From: Clostridia bacterium
Lineage (GTDB): Bacteria > Bacillota > Clostridia > Oscillospirales > CAG-272
Length of the DNA stretch: 64,000 bases
Reading direction: 5' to 3'
Assembly: GCA_017408585.1 (NCBI GenBank)
Contig: JAFQUJ010000007.1
Location: forward strand, 31,053 to 95,052
Position numbers and translations under genes: made by a program. Of the stretch, positions 2,465 to 13,297 are shown in pieces; position 1 is the stretch's first letter; the number at the start of each line of letters is the position of its first letter. The notes below the pieces were generated by a model. The model did not search any database, was not told the origin of the DNA, and saw only the letters and a list, made by a program, of their open reading frames with translations.

Positions 2465-2490
2465 AAATAAACAGACCAAGAACCGTCCTA

Positions 2491-2822: not shown

Positions 2823-5800
2823 ATGGAAATTAAAAGAAAAAGCACACTAAAGCTCCTCGCATTCATCTTGTCCGTGCTTATGCTGATAGTGTCAATGCCA
2901 CTCACCGCCTTCGCGCTGGCGCTTGATAGCTTAAACGATAGCACCGACACACCAAGCACAAGCCCTAAGGACATAATTGTGCTAGAGGAGGACAAAGCAT
3001 TAAGAGAGGAAAATGTCAAGCATTTTAAGCTCTCAAACGGAACAACAAAGGCGGTAATCTATCCCGGAGCGGTACACTATAAGGACGCAAACGGAAATTG
3101 GATAGATATTGACAACGCCTTGACCCTTAACGGAAGCGAATACTCTACAAGCAATAAATCAAAAATAAAATTCGCAACCAAATCAGGCTCAAATTGCTTG
3201 ATAAGCATTAAGGACGGAGAATATAAGATAGATTTCACCCCCCTTAATACAAATAAAGTAAATGTGGCAATCGAAAACCCACAAAAGAGCAATAGCCGTA
3301 AATTCGAGGATTTGTCAAGGCTAAATAGCCTCGTATCAATGGCAACATACGCCAACATCTATGACGGAATAGACCTCGAATACATACTAGCAGGCAATAA
3401 TGTCAAGGAAAATATTATTGTCAAGGAAAAACAAGACTCATACACCTTCGCCTTCGAGCTAAAGCTGAATAAATTGAGCGCAATGCTTGAAAACGGAGCG
3501 GTAATTTTAACAGACGCCGACACGGGCGAGCAAAAATATAAAATCCCCACCCCGTATATGTATGACGCTAATGGCGTTTATAGTAATGGCGTCGAATATA
3601 GCCTTGTTCAAGAGAGTAAATGGAAATATACCCTCACCGTAATCGCTAGCGCCGATTGGATAAACGAGGACGAAAGAGCCTTCCCCGTCACAATCGACCC
3701 AACAATAGGCTATGAAAGCACGCAAATAAATGACTATACCATAAAAAACGGTCAAATAACCGATAACGAAATGCTCAAAATAGGAGGGGGAAGCTCCTCA
3801 TATATAGAGCTTTCAAGTCTGCCAAGCTTCCCTAAGGACGCATACCTTACAGACGCCTATCTGTCCCTGAATTATCTTGCAGGAAGCGGAACAATAGGAC
3901 TTTTCGATACAAACGAAGCAAATCCACCTATGGATTATGTAAATGTAAGCGATGATGACACACAGTGGTACACCTTGAACCTGCGTAACCTCGTAGATGC
4001 GTGGTATAAGGGAACATACGAGGAATATATAATTTGCCTCGGAATGATATCGGGCGCAGAGGTTTCCGTGGCATCAAGCGATACAGTCGATGCCTCAAGA
4101 CCGATAATAGCTATCACCTACCGTGATATGAAGGGCGCAGAGCCATATTGGAGCTTTATCTCTCAAAGCGCCGGCAACGCAGGAACAGGAAGCATCAATT
4201 TGGCAACAGGAAATCTCTTGTTTGAAATAAGCACACCCTCAACCACCGATAGCTTGTTTAGCTTCACCCCCAGCCTCATATATAATTCAGCTATCGCAGG
4301 CGAGGAATATAAATATTCTAACGCTCAAATAGGCTATTGGGGAACATATGTCGCAAATGGCTTCAAAGCAAACTTTAACGAGGCATTGATTAAGGATAGC
4401 TATATCAATTCAAATGGCGATAGCGAAACCTACTATATCTGGGCAGATAGCGACGGAACAGAGCACTATTTTATCAAGGATAGCGAGGGCGTGTATCGTG
4501 ACGAGGACGGCTTACAGCTCACCCTCAGCACAAACGATAACGATATAACGCAGAATTGCATAATAACCGATAGCGCACATAATCAAAGAATATTCGCGCA
4601 TATGTCGGGAACAGTTTCAAGCGAAATCGAAGCAACATGGTATCTTAGCAAGCTCCGTGACCCTAGCGGAAATGAATTGTATTTTCAAATAGATGGCTCG
4701 AAAAAGCCAAACGATATAAAGATTATACCAAATGGTCAAAATGCTATCACAATGATAAGCCCATTGTATAACGCCAATAGTAGACTAGCGCTTTTGTGGA
4801 ATAATTCTTCAAAGGAAGGCGTAGTTTTCCGTCATAGCACTAACCCTGATGATGACGAGGAACTCAGTACAAATGGTGGAAAATACCTAAGAGAAGCTAT
4901 TTATATCAAGTGCGAAAGCAATATCGGCTGGAGCTATGTAATGAATAATTTCTTAGGCGATTTTGATAACCAAACCGACGGAATAACCGTCAATGCCATA
5001 ATGCAATATTCCTACGACCCAAACGGATACTTGACAGAAGCCCACGATACCCTGTCAGGCTATAAAATAAAATATACCTATGAAGACGGACAGGTAACAG
5101 GCGTCACCGAATATGGTAAAAATGGCACACAGGGTCAAACAATCGGCATAAATTACGAAACAGGCTATACAGAGGTGCACACCTCAGGCTCAAACGATAT
5201 TTATGGCGACAACGACGATATAATCAATGTCTATGTCTTTGATAACCAAGGCAGAACCATAACCACATACTCAACAAACGAAGATAGAACCGAAATTTAC
5301 GGAGCTTCAAGCGGTGAGTATGATGGTGAGGCTACAAACAGTTTAAAGACAAGCAGTGTTTCAAGCGGAACTTCGTCTAACTATATAGTTAATGGAAATT
5401 TTGAAGTAACAGATAGTCTTTGGCAGTGGACTGTAAGTGATTCAAACAAGGTTACATTCCAATATGAAGACGGAAATGCACCCGCTTGGGATAATGGAAG
5501 GGCTGTTATTTCTGCTGATAAAAACACCGAACAGTATATAAAACAAACGGTAGTTTTGACCGACGGAGATTATACAATGTCTCTTGATCTAAAAGGCTTG
5601 TCCGATACGGAACTTATAACAGTTAAACTAATAGCTCAAACAAGAGATGGTGTAAGCTATGAAAAGGAAATAGTGATTGATAGTAGCACATCTGTTGACA
5701 AAACGGATTTTGCAACAATGAGCTTTTCCCTAGATGGCGAATTAAACTCCGCAATTATATGTGATGTGTTTGTTAAAGTAGTAGCAGAAGACGAGGCTGT

Positions 5801-8800
5801 AAGTGTTGAAATAGATAATTTAATGCTATCAAAAACAACCGGTGCTCAAAAATACAATTATGTAAACGATGCCGAGTTTGAGCTTAGCTACTTTGGAGAA
5901 AATACTAATAATGTAGGTATTTGGTGTACTGCTCCAATAGAAACAAATACAGATTGGTATACCACATTTAGAAAATCATTAAAACTAAGTGGTGAAATTG
6001 ACGAAGAAAAATATGTAACTCAGCTTATATATAAAGCAACAGAGCAGGAAATGCAATTGTCGTCTAACGGATTTTGTGCAACTCAATATCCAACAATGTT
6101 CAATTTGTCAGGCTTTGGAAAAGCAACCTCAATTTTAAGCAGTAAAGATAGCTTTTTTGGATTGAAGCTTGAAATAAAGGTGCTAGTGCCTGAATATAAT
6201 GAAAACAATGAAATTATAGGCTTTACAGAAAAGCCACTTGAATATGAGACTAAATTCAAACAGAACACGCAAAATTGGCAATATTCAAGTGTTTCAGCAG
6301 TAATTCCCGAAAATGTATTTATAAGTGAAATTCGTGTGTATTGTGAATATTCAAACAATTTGGGAGAAGCCTTGTTTGACAAAATTTCATTGACACAAGA
6401 AAACGCAGGAGATATTGTTCAATATGATTATTATAGCGGTGGAAGAATAAAATCACAAAAGAGTAGTTCCAGCGTTGTTAATTATGTGTACTATGATGAC
6501 GGAAATGTTGAATATGCAATATTTAATGATAAAATGATTCGTTATGAATATAGCTCTAACAAAGTAAGTAAGCAAACTACATATTTATACGACCGATATA
6601 TCTATGATGTGGAAAATCCCACAATAGCCATGAACTATAAAGAGCTTATGACAATAGATAATATTGTAGTTTACGAATATGACTCATATGGATTGCCTAT
6701 AAAAACTCGTGTTTCCGGTGGTGATACTTATTCAGAAACCATATATGAATATTATTACGATAACAGAATATTTGGAGCAATAAAATCCGTTACTGATTCA
6801 CTTGGAAATGTAACAAGATATTTTTATGATAACAAAAACGGAAATCTTATAGCAACAACAGAGCCAGATGGTTATGGAATATATTATAGATATGATGATT
6901 TGGGAAATGTTGTTTCTATTCAAAAAGCAATGTATAATGGTGGAAATGCTGCCTTGTCGGTTAGTGGAAATGGATTGGTTACATTTGAGTATGATGACGC
7001 AAATATGTTACAATCTATAAACGCCAATGGAACGATTTACGATTTTACATACGACATTTTTGGAAATGGAGAAGAAATATTTATAGGTGATGATAAAATT
7101 ATTGAACAGACCTATAATTCCAATAATGGCAAGCTGTTGAGTGTAAGATATGGTAATAATGTACTTATAGAATATACTTATGATAATTTGGATAGAGTAA
7201 CAGAAATTACCTATTCAAAGGGTTCAAAAAGTCGAACATATACCTATACATATGATTCAAGTGGAAATGTAATAAAGGTTGAAAATGACGATAACAATCA
7301 AACAACCATGTATGATTATGACTCGTCAGGAAACTTGAAGAGATATTATACTTATAATAGCAATACAGGTATAATAATTAATTCTATGTCGTATTCCTAT
7401 GATAGCAAAGCGAGATTGTCTGAGGCTTCGTATTATAAAGACTTTTTAATCAATAGTGATGTTTATGAATATTATACTGCGAATCATAATTATCAATACG
7501 AGTATGGTAATGACGATAGTCTTTCGAGTTCTTCCATCAGCTTTATGAATAACAACATGTATAGCTTTAATTATTCGTATGACGCGTTTGGACGCTTGAC
7601 ACAAAGGACAAGCCATTTTAATGAGGAAATGACAATTATCAATGCGTATGTATATGTAAACGATAATTCCAAAACCTCAAATAGAGTGGATAAATATATC
7701 TCTCAAATAAGTGGATTTATTTCCTTTGAATATGATTATGAATATGACACTAATGGAAATATAACAAAGGTGTATATATCAGAAGATAATTTGATATATA
7801 GCTATGAATACGATTCGCATAATCGCTTGACAAGAGAGAACGATGCAATACAAGAAAAGACATACATATATTTGTATGATCCTAGCGGAAATATATTCAG
7901 AATAAAAGAATATTCCTATACAACGGAAGGTATAGCCTCGGCTACCCTTAAAAGAACAATTTCATATACATATTCAACAGGCGCATGGAAAGACCAACTG
8001 GTGTCGTATAAAATTGAAAATGCAGACGGGACAGAGGTCGAAAAAACAATAGCCTATGACGAAATAGGAAATCCAACAGAATACCTAGGATATGATATGG
8101 AATGGAACGAGCTGGGAGAATTAGAAGTAATTAGAAATGGCGAAGAAATTCTTGCGTATTATGATTATAGTGATAGTGGCATTCGTTCTAGAAAAACGGT
8201 GGATGGAGTAATTCATAATTACATATATGAAGGAACGACACTTTTATACGAATATTACGGAGAAGTATTTATAGCCTATTTCTATGACGAATCAGGCGCT
8301 CCCATTGGAATGGCATATCGTGACGGAAGCAAAGCAAATCTAAATCTGCCAATGGAAGAACAATTTGAGTATTATTACTTTACAAAGAACCTACAAGGTG
8401 ATATAATGATAGTAATGAGCGATAATGGAATTGCAGTTGCCGCTTACTCTTATGACGCTTGGGGAAATCATATAGTAGATGCTCAAAGCGGTTACGAGTA
8501 TATCGCAAATGCAAATCCATTTAGATATCGTGGATATTATTATGACGCAGAAACAGGCTTTTATTATCTACAAACAAGATATTATGACCCTCAGTTAAGA
8601 AGATTTATCAGCGCTGACGATATCGGTTTTCTGGGTGCAGATGGTGGCTTGCAATCTTACAATTTGTATGCGTACTGCCAGAATAATCCTATTATGTATG
8701 CCGATCCTAGTGGAGAGTTTGCGATATCTTTGATTGTAGGGTTAGCGGTGTCATTTGTAATTGGGACTATAGCAAGTGCAACTAGTCAGTATGTTCAATA

Positions 8801-9290
8801 TGGAGAAGTTAATGTACTACAGGCGGGAATTGATGGGTTGTTTGCAGTTGCTTCAACAGCATTGGCTTATACGGGCATTGGTTTAGTTGGTTCTATTGCT
8901 GTGGGAGCAGGAATGGGATTGGCACAATACGCAATTGACTCGGCTATATTTCACGATGATTTTACTTGGTCTGGTGCTTTAATCGCAACTGGATTAGGTG
9001 CTTTAGGTGGGTTGGCTAGTGGTAGAGGCGCTCAACACTTTAAGTCTATTGGAAGCAATCTTGACGAAACAGGAAGAACAGGTGTTAAGGCGATTCTTAC
9101 TGCGTTTGATAGATATGGAAAAGGCTCAGGCTATCAAAAAGTAATGAATTTATGGGGAGGTAGAGTTGCAAATTCTCTAGCAAATTCTATTTCTCAAAAT
9201 TTTACAAAAAGTGCGTTAATCATTTGGGGCACAACGGCTACAACTTATGTAGCAAGTTATTGGTTAGGAAAAATTAATTGGGGATTTTAG
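2823..9290 (+). CDS. Secreted RHS/YD-repeat polymorphic toxin-type protein
   Basis: The 2155-residue protein begins with a signal peptide (about residues 1-33). Residues ~300-430 resemble the DNRLRE-type domain often found in Firmicutes RHS proteins. After it comes GSINLATGNLLFE, the usual opening of an RHS shell. Residues ~850-1190 hold two beta-sandwich, carbohydrate-binding-like modules. Residues ~1200-1830 are dense YD repeats (YDxxGN, YxYDxxxRL). The RHS core (YRGYYYDAETG...RYYDPQLRRFIS...NPIMYADPSGE) lies at about 1898-1965. In the RHS family the shell encloses a C-terminal toxic tip. Here the last ~190 residues are Gly/Ala-rich with hydrophobic segments and match no toxin I recognise. 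The immunity candidate starts 8 nt after the stop. Base composition shifts to more AT near 5.3 kb, suggesting a mosaic gene. Confidence 0.93.
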   Translation: MEIKRKSTLKLLAFILSVLMLIVSMPLTAFALALDSLNDSTDTPSTSPKDIIVLEEDKALREENVKHFKLSNGTTKAVIYPGAVHYKDANGNWIDIDNALTLNGSEYSTSNKSKIKFATKSGSNCLISIKDGEYKIDFTPLNTNKVNVAIENPQKSNSRKFEDLSRLNSLVSMATYANIYDGIDLEYILAGNNVKENIIVKEKQDSYTFAFELKLNKLSAMLENGAVILTDADTGEQKYKIPTPYMYDANGVYSNGVEYSLVQESKWKYTLTVIASADWINEDERAFPVTIDPTIGYESTQINDYTIKNGQITDNEMLKIGGGSSSYIELSSLPSFPKDAYLTDAYLSLNYLAGSGTIGLFDTNEANPPMDYVNVSDDDTQWYTLNLRNLVDAWYKGTYEEYIICLGMISGAEVSVASSDTVDASRPIIAITYRDMKGAEPYWSFISQSAGNAGTGSINLATGNLLFEISTPSTTDSLFSFTPSLIYNSAIAGEEYKYSNAQIGYWGTYVANGFKANFNEALIKDSYINSNGDSETYYIWADSDGTEHYFIKDSEGVYRDEDGLQLTLSTNDNDITQNCIITDSAHNQRIFAHMSGTVSSEIEATWYLSKLRDPSGNELYFQIDGSKKPNDIKIIPNGQNAITMISPLYNANSRLALLWNNSSKEGVVFRHSTNPDDDEELSTNGGKYLREAIYIKCESNIGWSYVMNNFLGDFDNQTDGITVNAIMQYSYDPNGYLTEAHDTLSGYKIKYTYEDGQVTGVTEYGKNGTQGQTIGINYETGYTEVHTSGSNDIYGDNDDIINVYVFDNQGRTITTYSTNEDRTEIYGASSGEYDGEATNSLKTSSVSSGTSSNYIVNGNFEVTDSLWQWTVSDSNKVTFQYEDGNAPAWDNGRAVISADKNTEQYIKQTVVLTDGDYTMSLDLKGLSDTELITVKLIAQTRDGVSYEKEIVIDSSTSVDKTDFATMSFSLDGELNSAIICDVFVKVVAEDEAVSVEIDNLMLSKTTGAQKYNYVNDAEFELSYFGENTNNVGIWCTAPIETNTDWYTTFRKSLKLSGEIDEEKYVTQLIYKATEQEMQLSSNGFCATQYPTMFNLSGFGKATSILSSKDSFFGLKLEIKVLVPEYNENNEIIGFTEKPLEYETKFKQNTQNWQYSSVSAVIPENVFISEIRVYCEYSNNLGEALFDKISLTQENAGDIVQYDYYSGGRIKSQKSSSSVVNYVYYDDGNVEYAIFNDKMIRYEYSSNKVSKQTTYLYDRYIYDVENPTIAMNYKELMTIDNIVVYEYDSYGLPIKTRVSGGDTYSETIYEYYYDNRIFGAIKSVTDSLGNVTRYFYDNKNGNLIATTEPDGYGIYYRYDDLGNVVSIQKAMYNGGNAALSVSGNGLVTFEYDDANMLQSINANGTIYDFTYDIFGNGEEIFIGDDKIIEQTYNSNNGKLLSVRYGNNVLIEYTYDNLDRVTEITYSKGSKSRTYTYTYDSSGNVIKVENDDNNQTTMYDYDSSGNLKRYYTYNSNTGIIINSMSYSYDSKARLSEASYYKDFLINSDVYEYYTANHNYQYEYGNDDSLSSSSISFMNNNMYSFNYSYDAFGRLTQRTSHFNEEMTIINAYVYVNDNSKTSNRVDKYISQISGFISFEYDYEYDTNGNITKVYISEDNLIYSYEYDSHNRLTRENDAIQEKTYIYLYDPSGNIFRIKEYSYTTEGIASATLKRTISYTYSTGAWKDQLVSYKIENADGTEVEKTIAYDEIGNPTEYLGYDMEWNELGELEVIRNGEEILAYYDYSDSGIRSRKTVDGVIHNYIYEGTTLLYEYYGEVFIAYFYDESGAPIGMAYRDGSKANLNLPMEEQFEYYYFTKNLQGDIMIVMSDNGIAVAAYSYDAWGNHIVDAQSGYEYIANANPFRYRGYYYDAETGFYYLQTRYYDPQLRRFISADDIGFLGADGGLQSYNLYAYCQNNPIMYADPSGEFAISLIVGLAVSFVIGTIASATSQYVQYGEVNVLQAGIDGLFAVASTALAYTGIGLVGSIAVGAGMGLAQYAIDSAIFHDDFTWSGALIATGLGALGGLASGRGAQHFKSIGSNLDETGRTGVKAILTAFDRYGKGSGYQKVMNLWGGRVANSLANSISQNFTKSALIIWGTTATTYVASYWLGKINWGF

Positions 9291-9298
9291 GAGGAAAA

Positions 9299-9733
9299 AT
9301 GGAATTATTATATTTAGTTGGAACTATATGGGCACTTTTGTTTTTAACATTTGCTTTTTGTTTTGATGATAGAAGGCCTATGTCAACAAAACTAAAATAT
9401 AAATATAGAGTTAAGGAAAATTCGATATTTAGAAAAATTATCAAATTTAAAGATAAAAAACACTATCCTTGCAATTATTTTAAAATAGTTCCATTTTATG
9501 TATTTCTATTATTAGCAGTTTTAAGTTTAATCCTATTATTTGTTGATATATTTACTAATGGCTTTATTACCAATACTATTCCTGAAGAAGCTTTTATAAT
9601 AGCAATGTTATGCATTTTTGTAATTAGTATTGCTTACTTTCTTGTTATTATCATTTGGTGGGAGATTGTTGATTATAACGAGTTTAAGTTCGCTAAAGAA
9701 GAATTATATAAAGAAAGAAAAAATAAAAAATAA
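9299..9733 (+). CDS. Small membrane protein, candidate immunity protein for the RHS tip
   Basis: The 144-residue product has about three hydrophobic helices (residues ~3-20, ~65-88, ~100-122) and a Lys-rich C-terminal tail. ATG 9299 is chosen because AGGAGG lies 5 nt upstream; a start at 9278 would overlap the RHS gene and lacks a ribosome-binding site. Polymorphic toxin genes are typically followed at once by their immunity gene, and this one follows 8 nt after the RHS stop in the same orientation. A membrane-embedded immunity protein would fit a tip that acts in or crosses the membrane. That function is inferred from position only; the sequence matches no family I can name. Confidence 0.8.
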   Translation: MELLYLVGTIWALLFLTFAFCFDDRRPMSTKLKYKYRVKENSIFRKIIKFKDKKHYPCNYFKIVPFYVFLLLAVLSLILLFVDIFTNGFITNTIPEEAFIIAMLCIFVISIAYFLVIIIWWEIVDYNEFKFAKEELYKERKNKK

Positions 9734-9815
9734 GACAGACAGTGGACGATTCTGTGTCTCCAAATTAAAAAAGGATAAGGGGTAGGAAACTACCCCCTAT
9801 TCAAAACTAAATATA
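9734..9815 (+). repeat. RHS-cassette boundary repeat, copy A
   Basis: Begins one base after the immunity gene. It has a palindrome-ended head (AGACA...GGACGATTCTG...TGTCT), an A-rich spacer, a hairpin (GGGGTAG-GAAA-CTACCCC), and then a shared tail ending CAAAACTAAATATA. RHS coding homology starts exactly at its end. Copies B (11354-11433) and C (13174-13239) are nearly identical over their shared parts. Confidence 0.9.
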
Positions 9816-9878
9816 TACACCGAACAAGGAGAGCTAGCAGTATCATATAAATATGATGCTTGGGGCAAGGTAATAAGC

Positions 9879-10670
9879 ATGACCACAGAAACCGGATATT
9901 CCCACATATCAAGTGCAAACTGTATTCTTTACAGAGGCTATTACTATGACTTTGAAACTCAATATTATTACCTCAATGCAAGATATTATGACCCATATAC
10001 CAAGAGATTTATTAGTGCGGATAGCATAATCTCAGGTGTTGGTGGAAATACAAACGGTTATAACCTGTATGTATATTGCTTTGATAATCCAATTATGTAC
10101 TCGGACTCCTGTGGTAGTTGGCCAACAAAGGAAGAATTTCAAGCGTGGTGGAAAGAATCAAAAAGCGATGTTGTAGATAATTTTGAAAAAGCTGGAGAAT
10201 TCTTTAAAAAGATCATAGAGGGAATTGTTGTTTTTGGTTACAATATGGACCAAGATTCAAGAAATTTTGACATCAATAATAAGAGTTATGAGGTTGTAAA
10301 AGAAGCACATTATATATCCTCATATGATGGTACACTAGTTATAAAGTTGCCCATTGGAGGCAATGCGTTTTCATATGGTGCAATATTCGCAGGTGACATT
10401 TCTGAAATTGATCTAAAACACGAATACGGGCATTATAAGCAATTTAAAGAAATAGGATTGAAAAAATACACATTGTATGTTGCCCTTCCTTCTTTATATG
10501 GATATTGGAGTGGTGTAGATTATGATGACTATTATTCTCAACCATGGGAATATGGTGCAGATTTATATGGTGAAATTACAGAGCTTAGAAAAGATAAAAA
10601 TCTTGAAGCTTATCCTTACCGGGTCAATTCTCGACAAATATATGAGTCATATTGGAGGTTAGTTAAGTGA
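9879..10670 (+). CDS. Orphan RHS 3' cassette with HEXXH metallopeptidase-like tip
   Basis: The encoded 263 residues open with the end of an RHS core (YRGYYYDFETQYYYLNARYYDP...NPIMYSDSCGS, residues ~19-85) and continue into a different tip from the main RHS gene. The tip carries HEYGH (181-185) and, 38 residues on, PWEYGAD (Glu224). That is the arrangement of a zincin metallopeptidase with a third Glu ligand. The RHS frame is open upstream of ATG 9879 to the end of repeat copy A (reading IYTEQGELAV...YDAWG), with no start codon or good ribosome-binding site there. I therefore read it as a displaced, probably silent C-terminal module. It overlaps the next gene by 4 nt, so the pair moves together. 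Confidence 0.8.
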   Translation: MTTETGYSHISSANCILYRGYYYDFETQYYYLNARYYDPYTKRFISADSIISGVGGNTNGYNLYVYCFDNPIMYSDSCGSWPTKEEFQAWWKESKSDVVDNFEKAGEFFKKIIEGIVVFGYNMDQDSRNFDINNKSYEVVKEAHYISSYDGTLVIKLPIGGNAFSYGAIFAGDISEIDLKHEYGHYKQFKEIGLKKYTLYVALPSLYGYWSGVDYDDYYSQPWEYGADLYGEITELRKDKNLEAYPYRVNSRQIYESYWRLVK

Positions 10671-11386
10671 AAAGCTTTTTTAAAGCAAGAATGCTTATTA
10701 TAATTGTTTTATTGATTTTTCTGTTGGGGTGCTCTGGTACCAGAAGCCCGTATTCTGTTGTTTGTAATAATCAGCTTTTTTACAACACAAACAGATGGTG
10801 TGAACTTACTGTAGTATCAAAGGATAACTATGGCAGGGAGTTGTTTTGTTGGGATTTTTCAGTCGATTATGTTTACATGATATGCAGAGTAATATCAGAT
10901 GAAAATTCGGTTGCTGTTTATGATATGGATTGTTATATTATGTCAGACAAAGAATTAGATCCCAATAGTGAAACGCTTCAAAAGTTAAAGATTATAAATG
11001 ACTGGGACAATGAGATAAATGCTCAAAAAGAAGTTAAATACAGTCTTGAAGAAAGCTATGATTATTGGCTTTCCGACAAGATGTCAGGGGTTGTCTGGAA
11101 TATGATAGGATTCGAATATGATAACTTTACATATGAAAGTATTGTTACTCCTAATGGCAATGTGATTTTTTCAATAACGCCTGCAAAGGTTGTTGGTGAA
11201 TATCCTGGAACTCCCATTCTAGGACCGAGTATAATGGTTGCTTTTAATGAAAAATCTGAAATAATCAACAAAATGGAACTTGAAGGCGAATATGTTGAAT
11301 GGAAAGAACAAATTAGGGAATTTAAGAAAGTAGTGGATGAAGAACAAGGAGTGGAGACAGAGGACGATTCTGTGTCTGAGCAGTAA
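10667..11386 (+). CDS. Lipoprotein, candidate immunity protein of the HEXXH cassette
   Basis: 239 residues starting at GTG, which overlaps the previous stop (GTGA); GGAGG lies 8 nt upstream. The N-terminus is a lipoprotein signal (hydrophobic residues ~9-20, lipobox LLGC), so the protein should sit on the outer membrane face, where it could neutralise an incoming protease tip. No family is recognised. Its last ~12 codons (GVETEDDSVSEQ) lie inside repeat copy B, so the repeat supplies the natural or replaced C-terminus. The immunity role is inferred from position and translational overlap. Confidence 0.75.
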   Translation: MKSFFKARMLIIIVLLIFLLGCSGTRSPYSVVCNNQLFYNTNRWCELTVVSKDNYGRELFCWDFSVDYVYMICRVISDENSVAVYDMDCYIMSDKELDPNSETLQKLKIINDWDNEINAQKEVKYSLEESYDYWLSDKMSGVVWNMIGFEYDNFTYESIVTPNGNVIFSITPAKVVGEYPGTPILGPSIMVAFNEKSEIINKMELEGEYVEWKEQIREFKKVVDEEQGVETEDDSVSEQ

Positions 11387-11433
11387 AAAAGAATAAGGGG
11401 TAGGAAACTACCCCCTATTCAAAACTAAATATA
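11354..11433 (+). repeat. RHS-cassette boundary repeat, copy B
   Basis: Same order as copy A: a GAGACA...TGTCTG head, an A-rich spacer, the GGGGTAG-GAAA-CTACCCC hairpin and a tail ending ACTAAATATA. The head overlaps the 3' end of the lipoprotein gene. RHS coding homology resumes immediately after it, reading IYAEDG, at the same codon position as after copy A. Confidence 0.9.
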
Positions 11434-11521
11434 CGCAGAAGATGGCACAGAAATCGGTGGATATACCTATAACGCATGGGGAGAGCTACGCTCCCTATGG
11501 TCGCAAACAGGCTATGCTGAC

Positions 11522-12271
11522 TTGATTGAGTCAAATCCATTCCGTTACAGAGGCTACTATTACGATACCGAAACAGGCTACTATTATCTTAATTCAAGAT
11601 ATTATGACCCACAGGTAAAGAGGTTTATTAGTCCGGATAATCTAAATTATCTCGGAGCTAATGGCGATTTGAATAGCTATAACCTCTATGCTTATTGTAG
11701 TAATAATCCTGTGATGTATGTTGATCCGATGGGAACGGCGATAGGTGGTGCTGCTTTGCTCGGCATAGGTGCAAAGCTTGTAGGCGTTATATCAGCTGCA
11801 TTACCGGTTGTTGCAGTAGTTGCAGTAGTTGCGATAGCGGTAGTTGCAATTGTATTGATTGCAAATGAAATTGAAGAGGCACCAACTCTTGAAATCGCTC
11901 AGGAAGATGTTGACAAAATAAACCAAAATCATCCGGGCGAATATACCGTTTATAGTTTGGTTGATCCGCATACTAACGAGATAAAATATGTTGGACGAAC
12001 GAAAAATTATGAGGCAAGAATGAATCAACATAAAAAAAGCGAAAAAACAAAAGATTTGATTCCAAAACATCGAATAGACAATTTAGACTATTCTACGGCG
12101 AGAGGAATGGAACAATTTGGAATCGTATATTACAATATGCTTGAGTTAGGAAGAAATTCAATAAACGGAGTTAGTCCTAAAAACAAGAATCGTAGCGTTT
12201 ATTTAAGAGTTGCATACGATTATCTTTATAATATAACAACGAATGAGTGGTACAATATTTTTGGAGTGTGA
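11522..12271 (+). CDS. Orphan RHS 3' cassette with GIY-YIG nuclease-like tip
   Basis: 249 residues counted from a TTG that is probably not a real start; the RHS frame is open upstream to repeat copy B (IYAEDGTEIGGYTYNAWGE). Residues ~1-72 are an RHS core end (NPFRYRGYYYDTETG...NPVMYVDPMG). A Gly/Ala/Val hydrophobic stretch follows at ~75-115. The tip from ~138 reads YTVYSLVDP...IKYVGRT...ARMNQH, the pattern of the GIY-YIG endonuclease fold. Such tips are known among polymorphic toxins and would cut nucleic acid in the target cell. With no start signal, the module is likely expressed only after recombination onto a full RHS gene. Confidence 0.8.
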   Translation: MIESNPFRYRGYYYDTETGYYYLNSRYYDPQVKRFISPDNLNYLGANGDLNSYNLYAYCSNNPVMYVDPMGTAIGGAALLGIGAKLVGVISAALPVVAVVAVVAIAVVAIVLIANEIEEAPTLEIAQEDVDKINQNHPGEYTVYSLVDPHTNEIKYVGRTKNYEARMNQHKKSEKTKDLIPKHRIDNLDYSTARGMEQFGIVYYNMLELGRNSINGVSPKNKNRSVYLRVAYDYLYNITTNEWYNIFGV

Positions 12272-12276
12272 TAATT

Positions 12277-13161
12277 ATGAGTGAAATTTTTAGCATTTAC
12301 GATTTTGATGTTGTTTGTGACATTGATGCAGAATACGATTCCGAGTATGATGCACAAGGCTTTATTAAACACATAGAAGAAAATTATAAAGCAGAAATAG
12401 CAGATGACGACGATATGCCCTTGGTATATATAGGAATATGCGTAACATTGAACAAAAGAAATATTCCAATTCCGGACGAGCTTAAAGTGGTTGTTTCTAA
12501 GCTATTAAAAAGCAAGGGTCTTGTTGAAAGAATAAGAGAAGACGAGGAATATTTTAAGAGCTTCAAAAAGTGGAGAACCAAATTTTTAAAAGCAATTGAA
12601 AAAAACGAGTCATTGGAAACCGAATTTGTAAAGTATGTTTCTCCGTTTACTAATTGGCGAGAAAATGATGTCTATATGGTTGACATCACTGAATCCCCTG
12701 ACGAAGAAAGATATGTTTTTATAAGGGTAGTAGAAATAAGAGAAGAAAAAACAAAATACTACCCACAAATATATCTTTTTATTATGCCTGATTTTTCAAG
12801 CAATTTTGGAATTGATACCTTGGATGAAATAGTGTATTTGCCGGTATCTGTAAGATTTGATTGCCGAGGATTATATGATTATCTGTACGAGTTAGTTGAT
12901 GACGCTTTAAGAAAAAGTTGCGAAAAAGAAATAAAGTATGTTGGCAATTATCAATTAAAAGACCCCCAAAACTTGATAGACCTGAGAAAAAGCTCATATC
13001 GTGCACGGTTTCTGTTGGAAGAAATTACAAATGAACGCTTAGAAAGAATAAACCTTAAAATCTTAAAAAGGATGCAAACAGGAGACATCGTTGGAGGAGG
13101 AGAAAGCCTCTTTGAAGCATTGGAACGGGAAAAGGCAGAAAGGGAAAAGAAAGCGGAGTAA
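12277..13161 (+). CDS. Candidate immunity protein of the GIY-YIG cassette
   Basis: 294 residues, highly charged (Glu, Lys, Asp), with no signal peptide or membrane segment, so cytoplasmic as expected for immunity to a nuclease tip. ATG 12277 is preferred over an in-frame ATG at 12247 because GGAG lies 10 nt upstream and the start then falls 5 nt after the cassette stop. It belongs to no family I recognise. The C-terminus is a Lys/Glu helix (EALEREKAEREKKAE). Repeat copy C begins 12 nt after its stop. Confidence 0.75.
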   Translation: MSEIFSIYDFDVVCDIDAEYDSEYDAQGFIKHIEENYKAEIADDDDMPLVYIGICVTLNKRNIPIPDELKVVVSKLLKSKGLVERIREDEEYFKSFKKWRTKFLKAIEKNESLETEFVKYVSPFTNWRENDVYMVDITESPDEERYVFIRVVEIREEKTKYYPQIYLFIMPDFSSNFGIDTLDEIVYLPVSVRFDCRGLYDYLYELVDDALRKSCEKEIKYVGNYQLKDPQNLIDLRKSSYRARFLLEEITNERLERINLKILKRMQTGDIVGGGESLFEALEREKAEREKKAE

Positions 13162-13173
13162 AGAACATACAAG

Positions 13174-13239
13174 GCAGACAGGGGACGGTTCTGTGTCTCC
13201 AAATTAAAAAAGGATAAGGGGTAGGAAACTACCCCTTAT
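13174..13239 (+). repeat. RHS-cassette boundary repeat, copy C
   Basis: Head AGACAGGGGACGGTTCTGTGTCT, A-rich spacer and the same GGGGTAG-GAAA-CTACCCC hairpin, here followed by TTATTTTT so that it resembles a terminator. The CAAAACTAAATATA tail of copies A and B is missing, and a different RHS remnant follows directly. Confidence 0.88.
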
Positions 13240-13266
13240 TTTTATGACGAAATGGGCAATCCAACA
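13240..13266 (+). pseudogene. RHS repeat remnant
   Basis: Right after repeat copy C the sequence reads (F)YDEMGNPTN, matching YDEIGNPTE of the main RHS protein at both DNA and protein level (compare ~8055-8080). It then runs into a terminator. It is the stump of another RHS gene at the end of the array. Confidence 0.6.
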
Positions 13267-13269
13267 AAT

Positions 13270-13297
13270 AAAAAGCCGAGAAAATTCTCGGCTTTTT
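13270..13297. terminator. Terminator at the end of the RHS array
   Basis: GCCGAGAA/TTCTCGGC stem between A5 and T5, able to serve both strands. It is identical in the stem to 61-88. The gene on the minus strand ends at 13320. Confidence 0.85.

Follow-up and report, generated by a model that had tools for sequence, protein, structure and literature searches.

The window analysed here, a 64,000-nt stretch of DNA from a Clostridia bacterium (Oscillospirales, CAG-272; assembly GCA_017408585.1, contig JAFQUJ010000007.1, positions 31,053 to 95,052, renumbered from 1), carries a full-length RHS gene followed by two displaced RHS 3' cassettes, each introduced by a copy of the same composite repeat. 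It is an RHS C-terminal displacement array of the type described by Jackson 2009 (PMC2935791), that is, a full rhs gene trailed by core fragments with unrelated C-termini. We consider it probable that tip segments were exchanged here between two homology arms, that the displaced tips are relics and that the immunity genes were kept, as is best seen at a second array in the same genome, on contig C11. The window array is thus a known kind of arms-race fossil in which the boundary element is unusually clear; what is new is that every match to the repeat outside the window (E ≤ 1e-3) in this genome sits at C11.

The window array and its composite repeat

The features of the array are as follows.

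2823..9290, plus strand: full-length RHS gene with its own C-terminal tip, 2155 residues (RHS_repeat match; TIGR03696 at residues 1877-1964)
9299..9733, plus strand: immunity candidate for the main tip, directly after the RHS stop; its own stop lies 4 nt before the palindrome of repeat A
9738..9812, plus strand: repeat A, with a palindrome (9738-9758) resembling repetitive extragenic palindromic (REP) elements, a hairpin (9775-9800) and the joint to the RHS entry
9813..10670, plus strand: displaced cassette A, with tip A (10119-10670) behind an RHS-associated core that enters at main residue 1864
10667..11386, plus strand: immunity candidate A, lipoprotein-like by eye, its final residues EDDSVSEQ encoded by the repeat
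11356..11428, plus strand: repeat B, with REP-like palindrome (11356-11376), hairpin (11391-11420) and joint
11429..12271, plus strand: displaced cassette B, with a GIY-YIG nuclease tip behind an RHS-associated core that also enters at main residue 1864
12247..13161, plus strand: immunity candidate B, assigned by position, with an alternative ATG start at 12277
13177..13240, plus strand: repeat C, with REP-like palindrome (13177-13197) and hairpin (13214-13239)
13241..13270, plus strand: RHS stump C, seen by eye, ~30 nt (FYDEMGNPT), entry at main residue 1820

An initial annotation of this DNA had reported displaced RHS tip/immunity modules with a repeated junction, and both the three repeats and the two displaced 3' cassettes were confirmed. 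Copies of an 81-nt repeat start at 9721, 11339 and 13160, the second and third being 80% and 90% identical to the first, and behind copies A and B follows the RHS-associated core (TIGR03696, at residues 15-102 of cassette A and 13-101 of cassette B), then a new C-terminus. Within the window, GGGGTAGGAAACTACCCC has three exact occurrences as compared to 0.01 expected, with three or more reached in 0/100 shuffles, and GACAGnGGACGATTCTGTGTC has three (with 0, 0 and 1 mismatch) as compared to 0.00 expected. The repeat comprises, in this order, the palindrome GACAGnGGACGRTTCTGTGTC, an A-rich spacer, a 22-nt hairpin stretch (GGGGTAG-GAAA-CTACCCC) and the RHS entry; in the minus-strand direction, in which they are followed by a T run, the hairpins are scored as terminators. 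In eight of the nine immunity units of the two arrays, the palindrome is found just past the stop codon or within the 3' end of the gene. It starts 4-18 nt behind the stop codon in five of them and lies inside the gene end of immunity A, C11_5 (a partial palindrome only) and C11_6, the last residues of all three being encoded by it. A weak palindrome-like match upstream of the RHS gene (2473-2487, minus strand, 2 mismatches) is within chance.

The cassettes had also been called start-less, which does not strictly hold, as an in-frame ATG preceded by AAGG is present in cassette A at 9879; consensus promoters show no excess in the window (15 found, versus 19.2 +/- 4.4 in shuffles). Tip B is a GIY-YIG nuclease (PF01541, 26.1 bits against a cut-off of 22.6), and tip A contains HEYGH, which we take to be a zincin-like motif. 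Searches of Pfam returned no match for tip A or the main tip, and no family above its cut-off for the immunity candidates at 9299..9733 and 12247..13161. Stump C, too short for a search match, agrees with the main gene at 17 of its first 24 nt by eye, and a blastn match to C11 (13175-13251, 88% over 78 nt) runs from the repeat into it. Where relatives of the RHS core have names, these are mostly those of assemblies from Clostridia and Oscillospiraceae, in keeping with a host that is probably an uncultured clostridium.

As in the Enterobacteriaceae arrays for which Jackson 2009 proposed a circle model, one full rhs gene precedes strings of core fragments with unrelated tips, new ones displacing old, and in the Serratia example of that account the fragments mostly lack start codons. 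Unlike in the arrays described there, whose core fragments vary in length, immunity candidates unrelated to each other are here followed by the same composite joint, which is also carried by a remote array of immunity-type open reading frames (ORFs). The core fragments are not nearly identical to the upstream rhs core: cassettes A and B reach at most 75%, indicating that the window array is old or of mixed origin.

A second array on contig C11

The genome assembly (1.48 Mb, 69%-complete, 20 contigs) holds five RHS matches, of which the gene at 2823-9290 is the sole full-length one. Searching it with a 98-nt form of the repeat returned three matches at E ≤ 1e-3 outside the window, all at C11 (99.7-101.7 kb), while weaker matches lie also at C11, plus one of 14 nt on contig C9. 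Among 29 genomes of the genus the full 98-nt repeat is confined to this one, with two palindrome matches of 26-27 nt in G004 (G denotes other genomes, C contigs). The C11 array lies between tyrS and a metallophosphoesterase gene and consists of six immunity-type ORFs of 107-245 residues on one strand, with RHS and tip scraps between them and no full RHS gene.

Over 174 and 145 nt, respectively, two of the RHS scraps share 96.0% and 97.2% identity with the main gene, much more than cassette A (74.6%, 59 nt) or B (69.4%, 196 nt). An Ntox44 scrap before C11_6 covers profile positions 40-103 of 104, the first 39 being gone, and at one joint the IYTEQ entry leads straight into 23 nt that recur unchanged in the 3' part of tip B, in what looks like the deletion of nearly the whole toxin. 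With respect to the ORFs, C11_3 is 49% identical to an ORF directly behind a long RHS frame (G026), C11_4 is 50% identical to one behind a displaced RHS fragment (G008), and C11_1, a DUF3997 protein, is 39% identical to one near a palindrome in G025. Against a set of 391 RHS-linked ORFs, drawn from 148 loci that match the RHS core, three of the six C11 ORFs found a match (C11_3, C11_4 and, at 24% identity, C11_5), versus 0/23 controls.

Going by its sequence, C11 has the appearance of an archive of immunity genes that derives from displaced tips, the toxin scraps beside six open immunity-type ORFs arguing for the retention of immunity. Toxins would have been trimmed away here behind an apparent copy of the neighbouring gene's upstream region: a 43-nt direct repeat, 86% identical, flanks the array, and its right copy resembles, by eye, the sequence ahead of the phosphoesterase gene in G001. 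This genome lacks a C11-type array and has one lipoprotein-like ORF between the tyrS end and the phosphoesterase gene; the site comparison covers G001 only, as the phosphoesterase gene occurs in 13/29 genomes and tyrS was not found in the other stretches fetched. In the hairpin at the right end of C11 (GGAGCAG..CTGCTCC), changes are matched on both arms by eye.

The tandem same-strand immunity-type ORFs and the lack of an intact toxin bring C11 close to polyimmunity loci. Like the loci in the account of Zhang 2012 (PMC3482391), it has immunity-type genes in tandem and one orientation, away from the toxin gene; unlike those, described there as never interrupted by toxin genes or cassettes, it still contains RHS and toxin scraps and the joint repeat, and therefore looks like an intermediate. 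C11 joins RHS tip arrays and polyimmunity loci, which have been described apart, through a shared junction and near-identical RHS scraps. If the reading is right, immunity archives can arise from displaced tips by toxin trimming. The sequential displacement, with immunity genes left behind and effectors lost, resembles the orphan immunity arrays of the Vibrio cholerae type VI secretion system as presented by Kirchberger 2017 (PMC5361080). That account gives no specific integration sites and proposes homology-facilitated illegitimate recombination; the junction element here, in contrast, is repeated.

Joints, relatives and competing explanations

A fixed entry codon had been proposed for the cassettes. 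This is true of A and B, both entering RHS at main residue 1864 (1865 for A in a second search), the second residue of IVMSDNG and a short way ahead of the RHS-associated core domain. Stump C departs from it, since its FYDEMGNPT aligns with FYDESGAPI at main residue 1820, 44 codons earlier, and the C11a joint enters at this same earlier point. There are thus two entry points, IYxExG (A, B and, as IYTEQ, C11d) and FYDExG (C and C11a), with both loci showing each. The palindrome side likewise comes in two types, CCAAATT (A, C) and GAxCAG (B, C11a, C11d), and all four combinations of the two left and two right types occur among the five joints. Between them, the 22-nt hairpin stretch is identical in A, B, C and C11a and one base off in C11d. 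The simplest reading of these sequences is that the joint halves recombined around the hairpin stretch. A universal single entry codon is ruled out, as entry positions relative to the anchor vary between arrays, ranging from -7 to -252 nt. Several genus members whose joints differ have entries close to QGD codons, and others have them elsewhere; beyond chance or common descent we have no explanation for the closeness to QGD.

An RHS core match was found in 14 of the 29 genus genomes and in at least 81 of 246 family genomes. Displaced copies were mapped in 29 stretches plus the window, and joints were compared in 20, drawn from 40 stretches (20 + 20) that had been picked for RHS or palindrome matches and hence are not random. 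In G242, a full gene is accompanied by six displaced copies at spacings of 1.59-1.85 kb, and these are 85-98% identical to the main copy. In six full-gene arrays (G000, G002, G098:C26, G219, one pair in G242, and G009), two displaced copies share DNA further upstream than their likeness to the full copy extends, and G003:C20 has a shared joint with no full copy for comparison. These seven arrays were chosen for having a shared joint; in five of them (G000, G002, G009, G242, G003) it stands behind last upstream ORFs without significant similarity to each other. The upstream ORFs are homologous (30%) in G098, and G219 gave no result on them. The remainder of the 20 stretches had too few copies or an unclear reference. 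Separately, in G242:C10 (L164, copies at 5652 and 12404), a joint element of ~130 bp stands ahead of two of the six displaced copies and has, by eye, terminal inverted repeats AGCAAGCATCGC..GCGATGCTTGCT, perfect in copy 2.

The shared joint behind unrelated ORFs, together with the independently assorting halves, suggests a swap of tip and immunity gene between a core arm and a repeat arm. In the mechanism that we propose, new tip-plus-immunity segments would have replaced the tip of the single full RHS gene by homologous recombination, with the RHS-associated core serving as the left arm and the palindrome/hairpin tail as the right arm, and incoming segments would have pushed older tips and their immunity genes downstream. 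The joint itself would have formed rarely, perhaps once or twice in the lineage, and then been copied, which would make the entry look fixed. Displaced tips would persist as relics, selection keeping the immunity gene. Present behind unrelated immunity candidates in several species, and differing in sequence among these, the recurring joint offers a concrete site for the question of how displaced tips and orphan immunity genes are mobilised.

Several observations weigh against this interpretation. The displaced copies of G251 and G169 share no joint beyond what other copies share, although in these two which copy is the full gene is not settled. Copies 2, 4 and 6 of G242 have a common entry but other DNA precedes copy 4, a pattern that goes beyond what copying a single joint can explain. 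Only five joints underlie the argument from four combinations, and one of them, C11d, has the mismatch in the hairpin stretch. The C11_3 unit is without a palindrome, three of the six C11 ORFs have no match in the RHS-linked set, and immunity roles were assigned only from position and homology. The frames of tips A and B, with ORFs next to them, are still open, a state not required of relics; this and the near-identity of the C11 scraps to the main gene also speak against a purely fossil view. Finally, with one genome of the species to go by, no rearrangement was seen, and another RHS gene may be missing from the incomplete, 20-contig assembly.

The nearest competitor, a tentative one in our judgement, is the circle model of Jackson 2009, in which cassette circles excise and integrate by a single crossover in the RHS core, so that the repeat would be a passenger terminator. 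It concerns mechanism and overlaps with our preferred explanation. The model (PMC2935791) explains why tips are displaced and not deleted, why copies are regularly spaced and why cores within an array resemble each other. On its own, the model leaves unexplained both the same tail behind unrelated upstream ORFs (5/7 arrays) and the independent assortment of the joint halves; how the circular intermediate might first form is posed there as a question.

Rather unlikely, again as a matter of mechanism, is that the repeat merely hitchhikes: a REP element with its own Y1 transposase would often insert near immunity stops and decorate arrays that arose independently. The palindrome indeed behaves as a dispersed element of the REP type. 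The pattern GACAGGGGACGG-N3-9-TGTCT has 74 sites in 16 of the 29 genus genomes, with 0 in the reversed control, and when sites within 5 kb are merged they form 46 loci, 36 of which lie more than 5 kb from any RHS match. At three of the 20 Y1 loci fetched (from 25 Y1 matches listed; some loci overlap), it also follows a Y1 transposase gene, no more than ~30 nt past the stop; these are G015:C17, G004:C322 and G024:C147, whose proteins form one group with a common M.R.AR..SKTG.YH.MLRGINQQ. In relatives, the palindrome thus likely has a cognate Y1 transposase, as judged from this proximity. Like the REP elements and their associated tyrosine transposases (RAYTs) treated in PMC3733652, it is short, imperfect and dispersed, sometimes with a Y1 transposase gene next to it; the main text of that article does not use the word Firmicutes, and here the element is concentrated at RHS loci. 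The initial annotation had tied the repeat to the array, and of this an enrichment survives: while further copies occur at C11 and the palindrome half is dispersed in the genus, 10/46 palindrome loci lie within 5 kb of an RHS match versus 0.29 expected, ~34-fold, with ten or more in 0/200,000 simulations that assumed uniform placement and ignored contig ends. The palindrome is therefore enriched at RHS loci and not exclusive to them; conversely, an exact hit to the strict pattern is missing within 5 kb of 14/24 RHS loci, three of which (the own C11, G009:C20 and G008:C17) carry variants. Apart from this enrichment, hitchhiking has against it that a palindrome alone would not bring the hairpin and the RHS entry, which are also shared, and that the own, incomplete genome has no Y1_Tnp match. 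We met no paper on a REP-type joint at RHS arrays in the open-licence literature, where the combination itself was not searched for.

To the initial annotation, the array looked like a silent cassette store, in which intact displaced tips act as donors and recombine into the main RHS gene to switch toxins. We regard this as improbable. Tips A and B, with their adjoining ORFs, are open as donors would be, and there are precedents in maf islands and orphan rhs modules (PMC4287609, PMC3150448). As in the silent cassettes of maf and of contact-dependent inhibition (CDI)/Rhs systems presented in these reports, orphan tip/immunity modules follow a full toxin gene; unlike there, where genome comparison supports recombination, shared identity is short here and the comparison had a single genome of the species to draw on. 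In the stretches compared, the main gene has no identical run of more than 16 nt in common with A or B, and where they align, over 196 nt at most, identity is 69-75%. For RecA to exchange DNA efficiently, some 25-70 nt of identity are required. Measured against this figure, 16 nt would not suffice for homologous recombination, and for this reason a silent store for tip switching is not supported in the window array; the toxin scraps beside six open immunity-type ORFs at C11 also count against it. In seven family arrays with a full-length reference, identical runs reach 21-155 nt:

G242: 37-155 nt
G219: 82-125 nt
G098:C26: 25-111 nt
G009: 88 nt
G006: 73 nt
G002: 21-61 nt
G133: 30 nt

Runs in G169, G036 and G141 (46-86, 212 and 54 nt) were excluded, as the reference copy was not shown to be full-length. 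Switching would accordingly be more feasible in the seven arrays listed, as far as sequence identity can tell.

That displaced tips occur on full-length RHS genes elsewhere, as expected of a displacement array and in line with the check that the initial annotation proposed, was borne out for tip A, with relatives in full-length frames of G006 (2107 residues, 39% identity) and G098 (2197 residues, 38%), two of nine other matching genomes among 295. For tip B no full-length frame was found, the two other matching genomes having frames of 421 and 660 residues.

Least likely is that some recombinase, or the Y1 transposase, inserts cassettes at the hairpin in the site-specific manner of integrons. 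This would fit the assortment of halves around a 22-nt stretch identical in 4/5 joints and the entries near QGD codons in several genus members with different joints, but sits poorly with the scatter of entries (-7 to -252 nt), the lack of a Y1_Tnp match in the own genome and the ORFs beside either array, among which no recombinase was noticed by eye (no dedicated search was made). Nor was a tyrosine integrase noticed by eye among these ORFs, no search for one having been made. Equally unlikely is the idea that the palindrome/hairpin junction is an active exchange site, at which tip-immunity segments and lone immunity genes move between the RHS locus and the archive, aided by a single-strand REP transposase or by recombination at its palindromes. 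Were it true, these clostridia would hold an integron-like memory of past interbacterial toxins.

Further palindrome loci, internal promoters and carriers

Outside RHS loci, we inspected 21 palindrome loci (of 30 fetched, seven RHS loci and two duplicates being dropped). Matches to the RHS-linked set were found for 4/32 ORFs within 150 nt of the palindrome versus 1/29 beyond 500 nt, with one further match in between; the overall difference is weak. At G004:C372 (L115 351-1861), three small ORFs have one palindrome between the second and third and another behind the third, and the second is 60% identical to an ORF behind the RHS core in L285, so this is perhaps another immunity array. The Y1 transposase gene of G015:C17 (L077 reverse strand, 3167-4206) has direct and inverted palindromes around it; the unit comes straight after an RHS frame and a small ORF, and between palindromes a short RHS fragment was recognised by eye. 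In the own genome, lipoprotein-like and other small ORFs occur at L033 4800-7500 (C12), L035 3800-7000 (C7) and L034 3700-4400 (C10). Those at C12 stand in tandem with near-identical signal peptides. The palindrome variant GGTTCTGTGTCTTAGC follows the ORFs of all three, and another hairpin, GGGTGCG..CGCACCC, occurs at C12 and C10. These arrays were rejected as RHS immunity, none of their ORFs matching the RHS-linked set.

A candidate promoter at the joints of G098:C26 was likewise rejected. A perfect TTGACA-N17-TATAAT stands at two joints, and the same stretch lies inside the long RHS ORF, so the apparent promoter is an RHS fragment. This sigma-70 consensus was copied with its surroundings from the RHS ORF to the two joints (L167 1190, 5039, 9048), from which it follows that these copies carry an internal RHS deletion. 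In the window, TTTACA-N17-TATAAT with a TG ahead lies inside the RHS gene at 8379-8407 (codons FTKNLQGDI), just upstream of the core-tip module, and might be an internal promoter for the immunity gene, going by its sequence. Tested against synonymous recoding of FTKNLQGDII in 58 segments, the candidate promoter showed no enrichment across the whole set, though the codon choice is unlikely in several genus members: G000 (0.015), G002 (0.037), G015 (0.065) and G013 (0.067), and, in another register, G024 (0.025 in one of two copies) and G004 (0.032). The other copy in G024 gave 0.38, the two copies in G018 gave 0.16 and 0.64, the value for G008 was 1.0, and the remaining genus members fall outside the pattern.

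A known RNA family was discounted, as none of five matches at E ≤ 1 reached its gathering score. Plasmid and phage carriers of cassette B were also dismissed, since the matching records (2/72,556 and 3/50,697) cover the RHS core part only. Three un-annotated records of human faecal 'Bacteriophage sp.' (MT836326, MT835902 and MT837118) contain RHS core segments, one of them twice; the RHS core in these records may be bacterial DNA or an episomal tip pool.

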